Source: Desulfovibrionaceae bacterium
GTDB taxonomy: Bacteria > Desulfobacterota > Desulfovibrionia > Desulfovibrionales > Desulfovibrionaceae
Direction: 5' to 3'
DNA length: 6,930 bases
Assembly: GCA_009783115.1 (NCBI GenBank)
Contig: WRHT01000078.1
Coordinates: 1-6,930 of the forward strand
Program-made: the position numbers and the translations under genes
Shown: positions 4,266 to 6,706 of the stretch, one piece after another
How the letters are laid out: each line of letters opens with the position of its first letter
How positions within the stretch are numbered: position 1 is the stretch's first letter
Notes under the pieces: model-generated
What the model was told of the DNA's origin: nothing
Database searches by the model: none
What the model saw: only the letters and a program-made list of their open reading frames with translations

Positions 4266-4403
4266 AATAAAATATAGGGTTAAAGATAAATAGCGGCAAT
4301 ATCCGTCCGTAAAAGGCCGAAAAAAACAATTAACCCAAGCGGCGGGCAATGGGAAGGCGAGCAAAAAAAATTATGTCTTAACCAACAATATTTATTTTAC
4401 ATT

Positions 4404-4432
4404 TTTTTATTTGTTGTTTTTACGCTTATATA
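4404..4432 (+). promoter_or_regulatory. Weak candidate sigma70-type promoter for the dnaA-like gene
   Basis: TATATA at 4427-4432 is a plausible -10 element (four of six matches to TATAAT). The base run 4404-4409, 17 bp upstream, is only a poor -35 match (three of six). If used, transcription would start near 4439 and give a leader of about 60 bases. That leader includes a short possible stem (GCGCC 4448-4452 with GGCGC 4470-4474) ahead of the ribosome-binding site. Such hexamers arise easily by chance in AT-rich DNA. Confidence 0.2.
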
Positions 4433-4490
4433 GGTAAAAACCGCGCCGCGCCTGCGAAATAGCTCATAAGGCGCTAACGGCAAACCAAAC

Positions 4491-4495
4491 AGGAA
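4491..4495 (+). promoter_or_regulatory. Ribosome-binding site fixing the dnaA-like start
   Basis: AGGAA lies four bases before the ATG at 4500. The reading frame is closed by an in-frame TAA at 4467-4469, so the protein cannot extend upstream. Together these show that the missing DnaA domains I and II are really absent from this gene and not the result of a misplaced start. Confidence 0.7.
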
Positions 4496-4499
4496 CTAC

Positions 4500-5426
4500 A
4501 TGAACTTTGGGTCTTTCCTGTATAACCGCAAAAATGCGGCGGCGGTCCGGGACGCTGAAAATTTCTCCAGGGGTTCCCTGACCGGGACGCTTATTTTTCA
4601 TGGTCCGCCGGCCTGCGGCAAAACCTGTCTCCTGCTGTCCATACACGCGGCCATGGAAAAAACTTTTCCGGGTTCATCTTGCTATTTCAATATGTTAAAA
4701 GACTGTTCCTCCTTTATGAAAGACAAGGAAAAACTGGATAACTCTAAACTTTTACGCTATATTCTTCTGGACGACGCGGAGGCGGACAAGCTGGCGGAGA
4801 TAGCGGCCTGCGTAAAAAAACCAAGGGGATTTATTCTGGCTCTTAGGTCAGGCCGGAAGCCGGATGAAATTCCGGCGGCCTTTATAGGCAAAAAACCTGA
4901 AATACATACGCTGGCCATGCCGGATTTGGATATACGCCTCCGCTGGCTGCTCCGGAGAGCGCACGAACTCGGAATTACTCCGGATAACCGGCATATATTG
5001 AAATTAGCCGTAAACTATCAGGATTTGGAATCAGCCTCAAAACACCTTAACAAAAAAGACGCCGCTTTTATGGTTAATGTCCGGGCAATACCTCTGACCC
5101 CGGAAGAAATCATTCAAAAGGTGGCTGATTTTTTTGGCATAGGCCTGGAACAAATCCTGGGAAAAAGCCGTGTCAAAAAAATAAACCTGGCCCGGCAACT
5201 GGCCATGTTCTTATGCCGGGATCTCCTAAAAGCCGGCCTTAAATTCATAGGAGACTGTTTTCACGGAAAAAACCATGCCTCTGTTTTATACTCAATAAAT
5301 AAAATAAGCATGTTATGTGAAAAAAACCAGGATATGCACAATTTGGTGACAAGGCTTAAACAAAATATAAATCAACAGATAAATCCGCAGCCGGCCGCAA
5401 AAAAAAATTCCAGGCCAATGGTATAA
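4500..5426 (+). CDS. dnaA: Short divergent DnaA-family protein (AAA+ domain plus DNA-binding domain IV only)
   Basis: This 308-residue DnaA homologue lacks domains I and II; E. coli DnaA has 467 residues. Residues 3-35 already match the entry into domain III (FGSFLYNRKN up to LIFHG). Walker A is GPPACGKT (35-42) and Walker B is YILLDDAE (87-94). The stretch between them is about eight residues shorter than in E. coli, so the initiator-specific helix insertion may be trimmed. At sensor I the usual TSDR reads ALRSGR (114-119). The box VII arginine-finger segment reads GKKPEI (130-135) with no arginine. The box VIII sensor II arginine appears as Gln174 (NYQDLE). Domain IV (about 199-270) is well kept: LTPEEIIQKVADFFGI, then GKSRVKK with Arg224 at the place of E. 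coli Arg399, then HGKNHASVLYSINKI at the signature where E. coli has GGRDHTT. A 38-residue tail follows. Its place before dnaN and gyrB suggests a role at the origin, but ATP-driven filament assembly may be reduced. It may be the initiator or a paralogue or regulator; the symbol denotes family and position. Confidence 0.82.
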   Translation: MNFGSFLYNRKNAAAVRDAENFSRGSLTGTLIFHGPPACGKTCLLLSIHAAMEKTFPGSSCYFNMLKDCSSFMKDKEKLDNSKLLRYILLDDAEADKLAEIAACVKKPRGFILALRSGRKPDEIPAAFIGKKPEIHTLAMPDLDIRLRWLLRRAHELGITPDNRHILKLAVNYQDLESASKHLNKKDAAFMVNVRAIPLTPEEIIQKVADFFGIGLEQILGKSRVKKINLARQLAMFLCRDLLKAGLKFIGDCFHGKNHASVLYSINKISMLCEKNQDMHNLVTRLKQNINQQINPQPAAKKNSRPMV

Positions 5427-5527
5427 AAAAAACGTTACTGTTCAAATTATTATAAAATAATATAACATGTTATATCTATTATAAACAAAAATCAAACCCT
5501 TTCTTCTACCACTAAAAGGAGATTATT
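5427..5527. other. AT-rich dnaA-like / dnaN intergenic region
   Basis: This 101-bp gap should hold the dnaN promoter and leader. Positions 5421-5490 contain 10 G+C in 70 bases (about 14%), lower than the divergent gap to the left. It holds an inverted repeat ATTATT (5446-5451) / AATAAT (5456-5461), a 16-bp palindrome, and TTATAAACA (5479-5487), which matches the DnaA box TTATCCACA at seven of nine positions. TAAAAT (5453-5458) and TATTAT (5477-5482) resemble -10 elements, but no good -35 element is spaced correctly. AAGGAG at 5516-5521 is the dnaN ribosome-binding site. Function as an origin part, an autoregulatory site or only a promoter cannot be decided from sequence. Confidence 0.45.
5460..5475. 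repeat. 16-bp perfect palindrome upstream of dnaN
   Basis: ATATAACATGTTATAT reads the same on both strands, centred between 5467 and 5468, and lies 52 bases before the dnaN start. Its AACATGTT core is more structured than the surrounding A/T runs. It could be an operator for a dimeric regulator or an origin-associated protein site. It is not a DnaA box and not a parS site. Confidence 0.5.
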
Positions 5528-6706
5528 ATGAATATTAAAATTTTCAAAGAGGATGTGCTTGATGGTTTGCAAAAAGCCGCCAATATCATCCAAAATCGCA
5601 GCGGGTATCCATATTTGCGCTCATTATGGCTTCAGGCTGGAGAAAACCGGGTCAACGTCATGGCCACGGATATGAATATTGAATTTAAGGGAAGCTATCC
5701 TTCCGAAGTTTCAGCGCCAGGCTTGGTAGGGGTACAAGGAAAGGATTTTGTTGAAATAATCCGCCGGGCTTATCCTGGGGCCATTTCCCTTAAACTTGAC
5801 GCCGAAGGTAAGCATTTGAGCATAGATCAGGGAGGGCAGCAGGGCAGTTTCAGTTGTAAGATGCCGGTTCTTGATTCCTCCTGGCGCCAGGATCTGGCTG
5901 AGTTCCCGGATAAAGAATCCGGGCAGGTGCTTTGGTCGGGCGATTTTTTTCAGGAACTCATTGATAAGGTGAGTTATTGTATTTCGGACGGCGATGGCGA
6001 GAACATTTCCTGTATGCTGATTAAGCCGGGAGAGGGGTCTTTTATTGACGTCTGCGGACTTAATTCGCACCAGATGGGGATAATCCGTTTTACCCACGAC
6101 GATTTGCGCGCCGTTCTTCCGGCCTCTGGCATTTTGATCCAGAAAAAATATCTCCTGGAACTAAAAAAATGGATAGGAAACAAGGATGTTGAAATAAGCC
6201 TTGACGAAAAGCGTGTTTTTCTCCGGGATGTTGATCACAAGGAGCTTTTCAGCCTCCCCCTGTCTTCTTATCAGTATCCTGATTATTTGAGCCTGCTTGA
6301 AAGAAGCAAAAGCCGGTCGACCTCCAGGCTGACCGTAAACCGCAAAGAGATAATTGATGCCCTGGAGCGGCTTTCCATATTTAATTCAGACGCGAATATT
6401 TTCACCTGTTATGATTTGAATTCAGCAGGTCCGGGGGTGTTATCCGTATCGGTGAAATCCCAGGACAAAGGATCCTGCAATCAAAAACTTAAAGTTGATT
6501 TTGATGGGGATCTTAAAGTTATATCCTTTCCCACCAAGTCCATGTTGGAGATCTTTTCCCATTTCCACTCCGAAAAGATCGATCTGATGATGGACGCCGA
6601 GAATCCTTGCGCGGTCAGCGGTGGAGAAGATCCCGATTATACGGTCATTATCATGCCAATGAAGGTGAATGAACATGTCAATTACCAAGAGGAAAAAGTT
6701 CAATGA
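5528..6706 (+). CDS. dnaN: DNA polymerase III beta subunit (sliding clamp)
   Basis: This 392-residue DnaN forms the dimeric ring that tethers DNA polymerase III and other repair and replication proteins to DNA. The start fits the family ([20 protein letters not shown]), with AAGGAG at 5516-5521 six bases before the ATG. The first domain shows [11 protein letters not shown] (45-54), equivalent to the clamp's LxxTDxEI segment. The second shows SYQYPDY (247-253), matching the RFPDY segment that helps shape the protein-binding pocket. The third ends with [10 protein letters not shown] (371-380), the canonical C-terminal MPM motif. A 12-residue tail extends beyond it, and the protein is longer than E. 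coli beta (366 residues). The middle of domain III is rather divergent. It follows the dnaA-like gene by 101 bp and overlaps gyrB by four bases, so dnaN and gyrB are probably co-transcribed and translationally coupled. Base composition is visibly less GC-rich than in parB or hldE1. Confidence 0.95.

Follow-up and report, generated by a model that had tools for sequence, protein, structure and literature searches.

The usual assumption is a single DnaA per chromosome, with a single box code, located by looking upstream of dnaN. In E. coli, domain I, the arginine finger and the sensor II arginine of DnaA all matter for initiation. Hda, a relative of DnaA, has its own arginine finger as well as a motif for binding the clamp. 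Plasmid-borne DnaA-like proteins are described for the Rickettsia felis plasmid pRF in the available text of PMC1800911, and our comparison with them is by description only. The DNA analyzed here (the window) is a stretch of 6,930 nucleotides from a Desulfovibrionaceae bacterium (assembly GCA_009783115.1, contig WRHT01000078.1). It carries dnaA1, a reduced DnaA gene directly upstream of dnaN that is orthologous to the dnaN-linked copy of G001, a sister genome with two DnaAs. Our analysis favors, with a probability of about 0.6, a division of labor in which the second protein, DnaA2, would act in trans as the initiator by reading a re-coded box, TTANGAACA, at the replication origin (oriC), and DnaA1 would be a regulator free to shrink. 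The DnaA located upstream of dnaN in Desulfovibrionaceae is probably not the initiator. No description of two DnaAs in this family was found among the matches listed in the open-licence literature.

Compared with DnaA as modeled by TIGR00362 and known from E. coli and B. subtilis, the window protein shares domain IV with R399, H434 and the signature region, the AAA+ fold with Walker A and Walker B, and the dnaA-dnaN-gyrB order at the skew origin. It differs in lacking domains I-II, the arginine finger, box VII R281, sensor I D269 and the sensor II arginine, in its score of 89.3 against a cut-off of 343.9, and in the presence of a second, full-length DnaA in its sister genome. Hda (TIGR03420) is also an AAA+ DnaA relative without domains I-II, but the window protein possesses domain IV and scores 26.7 against the NCBIfam Hda cut-off of 194.8; the resemblance to Hda proposed in the initial annotation holds in concept only.

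A reduced dnaA gene in the window

The features of the gene are as follows.

4467..4469, + strand: in-frame stop TAA bounding the N-terminus
4491..4495, + strand: AGGAA ribosome-binding site
4500..5426, + strand: dnaA1, reduced dnaN-linked DnaA paralog of 308 aa, ATG start, ortholog in the sister locus L001
4602..4625, + strand: Walker A GPPACGKT, residues 35-42, kept
4764..4775, + strand: Walker B LLDD, residues 89-92, kept
4881..4904, + strand: box VII/arginine-finger stretch FIGKKPEI, residues 128-135, arginine lost
5019..5021, + strand: Gln174 within the sensor II stretch NYQDLE
5076..5375, + strand: domain IV, the DNA-binding domain, residues 193-292

The initial annotation described a 308-residue DnaA without domains I-II, and the reading frame, the Pfam search and the space upstream all agree with it. 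Only 50 codons separate the upstream in-frame stop from the Walker A lysine, a count that is independent of start codon choice. The protein matched Bac_DnaA_C (PF08299) at 77.5 bits over residues 201-269, and no match to Bac_DnaA (PF00308) or DnaA_N was obtained in the Pfam search at E up to 1, where the HMMER filters discard most matches above about 0.1. The TAA and the AGGAA lie where that annotation had placed them, and the 233 bp between the nrdJ start (4266, minus strand) and the dnaA1 ATG would leave insufficient room for domains I-II. In the sister locus L001 the layout is equivalent, the nrdJ-dnaA1 gap being 274 bp (L001 9727-10000). Given this match in layout and the 233-bp gap, a hidden frameshift restoring domains I-II, which had been named as a possible refutation, is not a reasonable explanation; frameshift and mis-assembly were ruled out by these two observations together with the ratio of nonsynonymous to synonymous substitution rates (dN/dS) of 0.24.

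The catalytic and control residues were also as annotated, with both Walker motifs kept and the arginine finger and sensor II arginine lost. The window residues opposite R285 and R334 are alignment-dependent (one alignment gives E at both, another gives Q at R334), and neither alignment places an arginine in either column. The DNA-binding fold is intact with R399 kept, and the GRDHTTV stretch reads GKNHASV, so that D433 is replaced by N.

Comparison with the L001 ortholog from the sister metagenome-assembled genome (79% identity, shared gene order) gave a dN/dS of 0.24 over 304 codons for dnaA1 and 0.07 for dnaN. Within DnaA1 the AAA+ base evolves fastest (0.31) and domain IV is the most constrained part (0.12). 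The frame has no internal stop and the ribosome-binding site is kept. The window dnaA1 is a real gene, and a DnaA that lacks domain I, the arginine finger and the sensor II arginine is still under purifying selection.

Two DnaA proteins in the Desulfovibrionaceae

The initial annotation left two options, a lineage that initiates replication with a reduced DnaA or an origin-resident paralog with a full-length dnaA elsewhere. A full-length gene was indeed found: G001 encodes a second DnaA of 471 aa on another contig, with DnaA_N, Bac_DnaA, Bac_DnaA_C, R285 and R334. E. coli DnaA matches this G001 DnaA2 at 176 bits and leaves the window DnaA1 unmatched at E 1e-4. Across the family of G001, PF08299 matched in 195 of 199 genomes, with two copies in 168, one in 27 and none in 4 (counted by hand). 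Seventy of these genomes were searched further (51 two-copy, 15 one-copy, 4 without), and both loci were fetched for 44 two-copy genomes, plus single copies from others. The comparison set comprised 47 DnaA1, from the window and 46 fetched loci (45 dnaN-linked, the other at the end of a contig), and 56 DnaA2. One copy was dnaN-linked in all 44 fetched two-copy genomes (that of G055 lies at a contig end); the unlinked copies scored at least 216 bits against G001 DnaA2, and the linked copies at most 107.

The two proteins differ in anatomy. At E up to 0.01, PF00308 was found in 45/47 DnaA1 and 56/56 DnaA2, and DnaA_N in 14/47 and 54/56, respectively. The distance from the upstream stop to the Walker A lysine was at most 96 codons in 10 of the 45 closed DnaA1 frames and at least 147 in the remaining 35, whereas none of the 53 closed DnaA2 frames fell below 135 codons; 2 further DnaA1 and 3 further DnaA2 frames run to a contig edge and are outside these counts. 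Short dnaN-linked forms, of the kind that the initial annotation had proposed to look for in relatives, recur in the family. A single origin of the short forms is made unlikely by the DnaN tree, which groups five G041-type short forms and places the window and L001 apart, on a long branch and with a warning; separate truncations of DnaA1 are likely.

The recognition surface was also compared. DnaA1 retains K178 (47/47), R285 (39/47), R334 (43/47), D433 (43/47) and H434 (47/47), and the outgroup DnaAs have R285 in 30/30 and D433 in 28/30. DnaA2 has R334 in 56/56 and R285 in 41/56, and D433 is replaced in all 56, by R or K in 49; Q408 is replaced by N in 53/56 and A440 by G in 56/56. The available text of PMC8235120 describes D433 as highly conserved in all bacterial classes and as playing an important part in contacting base 7 of the box, and that of PMC5043019 gives residues 399, 423, 432-435 and 438-439 as base-specific. 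Judged by these positions, the residues predicted to read bases are altered in DnaA2 alone. DnaA2 further shows Walker B D235 replaced by E (56/56) and sensor I D269 replaced by S (55/56), so the presumed initiator appears to have an altered ATPase motif of its own.

In a sample of the phylum (e.g. G221, G233, G239), many weak Bac_DnaA_C matches of about 20-37 bits were seen, several per genome and often in frames of about 320-345 aa; these may be a mobile-element family.

Two box types at two places

GC skew was computed from 20 sampled pieces of each chromosome; it placed oriC at dnaA1-dnaN in 3/3 chromosomes, and dnaA2 was not the switch point. In G041 and G049 the change from negative to positive skew falls at dnaA1-dnaN; in G071 it spans the contig ends next to dnaA1. 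L001 also shows a sign change near dnaA1; local skew over short fetched loci was uninformative. An oriC at dnaA2, guessed from the canonical boxes there, was ruled out by the sampled skew.

A search for repeated words around dnaA1 revealed TTANGAACA, which in many family members forms a cluster spread over the 3' end of dnaA1 and the gap between dnaA1 and dnaN. The 18.6 kb around the dnaA1 stop hold 34 exact copies (1.83/kb), the 35.2 kb immediately before dnaA1 hold 9 and the 152.4 kb further downstream hold 2; sites with one mismatch number 118, where 17.2 would be expected from these loci. The pattern recurred in 23 genomes outside the discovery set of 70 (11 copies in 9.1 kb, at 9/23 loci, versus 2 in 63.3 kb). 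The GC-rich genomes G027, G099, G123, G135 and G175 yielded neither a one-mismatch TTANGAACA around the dnaA1 stop nor a separate box of their own. A search for TTATCCACA near dnaA, as made by origin finders, would overlook the likely boxes here.

The canonical box TTWTCCACA is concentrated upstream of dnaA2, with 34 in 41.4 kb (0.82/kb) versus 3 in 151.9 kb on the downstream side; its position is often near -190 to -240. In 30 further DnaA_N loci there were 11 in 18.9 kb versus 8 in 73.4 kb, with the box at about -209 to -244 in 9 of the 30. Some dnaA2 loci (e.g. L076, L083) have three alternating-orientation DnaA boxes 11 bp apart, about 145-230 bp upstream.

The occurrence of the canonical box was compared between genomes with and without dnaA1, anchoring the promoters on domain I of dnaA2 and counting only those with enough sequence; the 7 promoters without dnaA1 were drawn from nine genomes seen with DnaA2 but without dnaA1. 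Exact TTWTCCACA was present in 25/43 promoters of genomes with dnaA1 and 0/7 of those without (Fisher P = 0.0096), and the relaxed TTWTYHACA in 39/43 and 1/7, respectively (P = 8.5e-5). In the tight G139 group the -86 box is intact in G139, which has dnaA1, and altered in G171, G129 and G148, which do not; G192 is cut by a contig end in this comparison.

Origin boxes persist at dnaN loci without dnaA1

Twelve draft dnaN loci, each read over the 1.5 kb preceding dnaN, lack dnaA1 in that stretch. TTANGAACA persists in 10 of the 12, with 17 copies in 18.0 kb upstream of dnaN and 0 in 22.0 kb downstream. In five loci (G129, G148, G171, G192, G198) the best DnaA1 match was a stretch of 26-40 residues near the C-terminus with the box inside it (E 4e-7 to 4e-4, searched against these loci alone), and G171 had an additional weak match to residues 20-89 (E 0.002). 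It seems, then, that dnaA1 has decayed at these loci and left its box-bearing end behind.

Such remnants lend something to the view that the window gene is itself a relic in decay, maintained solely through the overlap of its DNA with the origin. We consider this very improbable, since the gene shows purifying selection over 304 codons, has an open frame with its ribosome-binding site, and lacks an exact box at its 3' end.

The same loci bear on whether DnaA1 could be the initiator, working through boxes in or beside its own gene, with DnaA2 accessory or stress-specific and the window lineage initiating with a minimal DnaA. DnaA1 does sit at the skew origin in the classical place, most DnaA1s retain R285 and R334, and eight draft genomes have DnaA1 without a recognizable DnaA2. 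However, the boxes outlast dnaA1 at 10 of the 12 loci, nine of these genomes have DnaA2, truncation affects DnaA1 and not DnaA2 among the closed frames, and the window copy is devoid of domain I, the arginine finger and the sensor II arginine. We regard initiation by DnaA1 as unlikely and favor the origin-resident paralog over the reduced initiator of the initial annotation.

It is also improbable that the two proteins form a mixed filament at oriC, in which DnaA2 would contribute the ATPase and domain I and DnaA1 would cap, space or dampen it, like an Hda with a DNA-binding domain. The part of DnaA1 that evolves fastest is its AAA+ base, not domain IV, and boxes without dnaA1 at 10 of 12 dnaN loci argue in the same direction.

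A proposed model for divided DnaA functions

In the reading that we prefer, DnaA2, which is encoded away from the origin and has domain I, the AAA+ ATPase and an altered recognition surface (R/K for D433, N for Q408 and G for A440), would read the re-coded box TTANGAACA at dnaA1-dnaN. DnaA1, with the ancestral recognition residues kept, would bind canonical TTWTCCACA about 190-240 bp upstream of dnaA2 and so regulate initiator supply. Truncation of DnaA1 in several lineages, and its absence at dnaN in others, would follow because helicase loading and the ATP switch are not needed by such a protein. In the window lineage only a degenerate AAA+ module and the DNA-binding domain would be left of DnaA1, under continued selection for binding DNA, and the copy beside the origin looks like a DNA-binding helper that the cell can do without. 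A more detailed version is tentative, at somewhat below even odds: the family may have split DnaA into two proteins with two codes, DnaA2 having re-coded the origin to TTANGAACA and DnaA1 being a feedback regulator that reads TTWTCCACA only at the dnaA2 promoter and can be reduced to a DNA-binding stub, as in the window, or lost, with the origin boxes in its old 3' end surviving. If so, the family would be a natural experiment in joint specificity change of initiator and origin, and in separable DnaA functions.

The model is best supported for the family and is extrapolated to the window, and several observations weigh against it. In exact form, neither TTANGAACA nor TTWTCCACA was seen in the window or its sister, and at dnaA1 both the window and L001 lack TTAGGAACA with up to one mismatch. 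The G001 dnaA2 promoter has only a degraded TTTTTAACA, G001 DnaA2 carries A433 and Y408, and the window DnaA1 carries N433. Both specificities may therefore have shifted again in this fast lineage. Canonical boxes are not clearly enriched in the window, where TTWTNCACA with one mismatch occurs 14 times against 9.7 expected and 18/200 shuffles reach 14. The window organism is inferred to have a DnaA2 as well, none having been seen; P0021, a protein from another assembly that is 93% identical to G001 DnaA2, is no more than a likely counterpart and may be the organism's own. More widely, 26/47 genomes with R/K433 lack exact TTANGAACA in the tested 500 bp; its presence in 21/47 of these versus 0/4 others (P = 0.13) is an underpowered comparison.

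The two contrasts between genomes with and without dnaA1 have limits of their own. The 12 loci are draft, and each genome has at most one PF08299 match, which is DnaA2 in nine, untyped in G198 and G185, and not found in G035. The promoter contrast is not independent of kinship: over 5 independent pairs on the DnaA2 tree, on average 1.9 agree, 0 disagree and 3.1 tie for the exact box (median P = 0.5), and 4.4 agree, 0 disagree and 0.6 tie for the relaxed box (median P = 0.06). The tree-based contrast is one-directional with too few independent pairs.

Nine genomes showed DnaA1 only. A profile of DnaA2 picked up a fragment of the protein in G005 and nothing recognizable as DnaA2 in the other eight (G013, G024, G026, G066, G091, G103, G132, G133), of which G026 gave a marginal second match of 19.1 bits. 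The G005 fragment lies near a contig end, and the DnaA1-only state of this genome is therefore an assembly gap. As a rough yardstick for such gaps, ribosomal protein L7/L12 was found in 21/24 genomes checked; assembly gaps can account for some missing dnaA1 and dnaA2 genes, though possibly not for every one. A complete genome among those with DnaA1 only would mean that DnaA1 is able to work by itself and that labor is not divided in this way everywhere. In L317, the G005 locus with the dnaA2 5' fragment, TTTTCCACA stands about 105 bp before the frame opens.

Other features of the window

The regions flanking dnaA1 and the gene downstream are as follows.

4267..4499, no strand: nrdJ-dnaA1 intergenic region, aligned with L001; presumed promoter that may also form part of the origin
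5427..5527, no strand: AT-rich dnaA1-dnaN intergenic region; in relatives TTANGAACA clusters here and at the dnaA1 3' end
5528..6706, + strand: dnaN, sliding clamp, divergent

The nrdJ-dnaA1 gap is identical to L001 at 197 of 218 aligned bases (90%), although the synonymous rate (dS) in dnaA1 is 0.46. It contains three TTAACC words about 50 bp apart that are conserved in L001, the whole window having 6, and two such words lie within 400 bp upstream of G001 dnaA2 (locus L007). TTAACC is a possible lineage-specific replacement box. The window DnaN scores 137.4 bits with TIGR00663, barely below the cut-off of 137.65, and has a long branch on the DnaN tree. At 942-1967 the window encodes an HldE-type kinase of 341 aa that matches domain I only (TIGR02198, 324.8 bits, cut-off 345), the adenylyltransferase domain being unmatched in the same protein.
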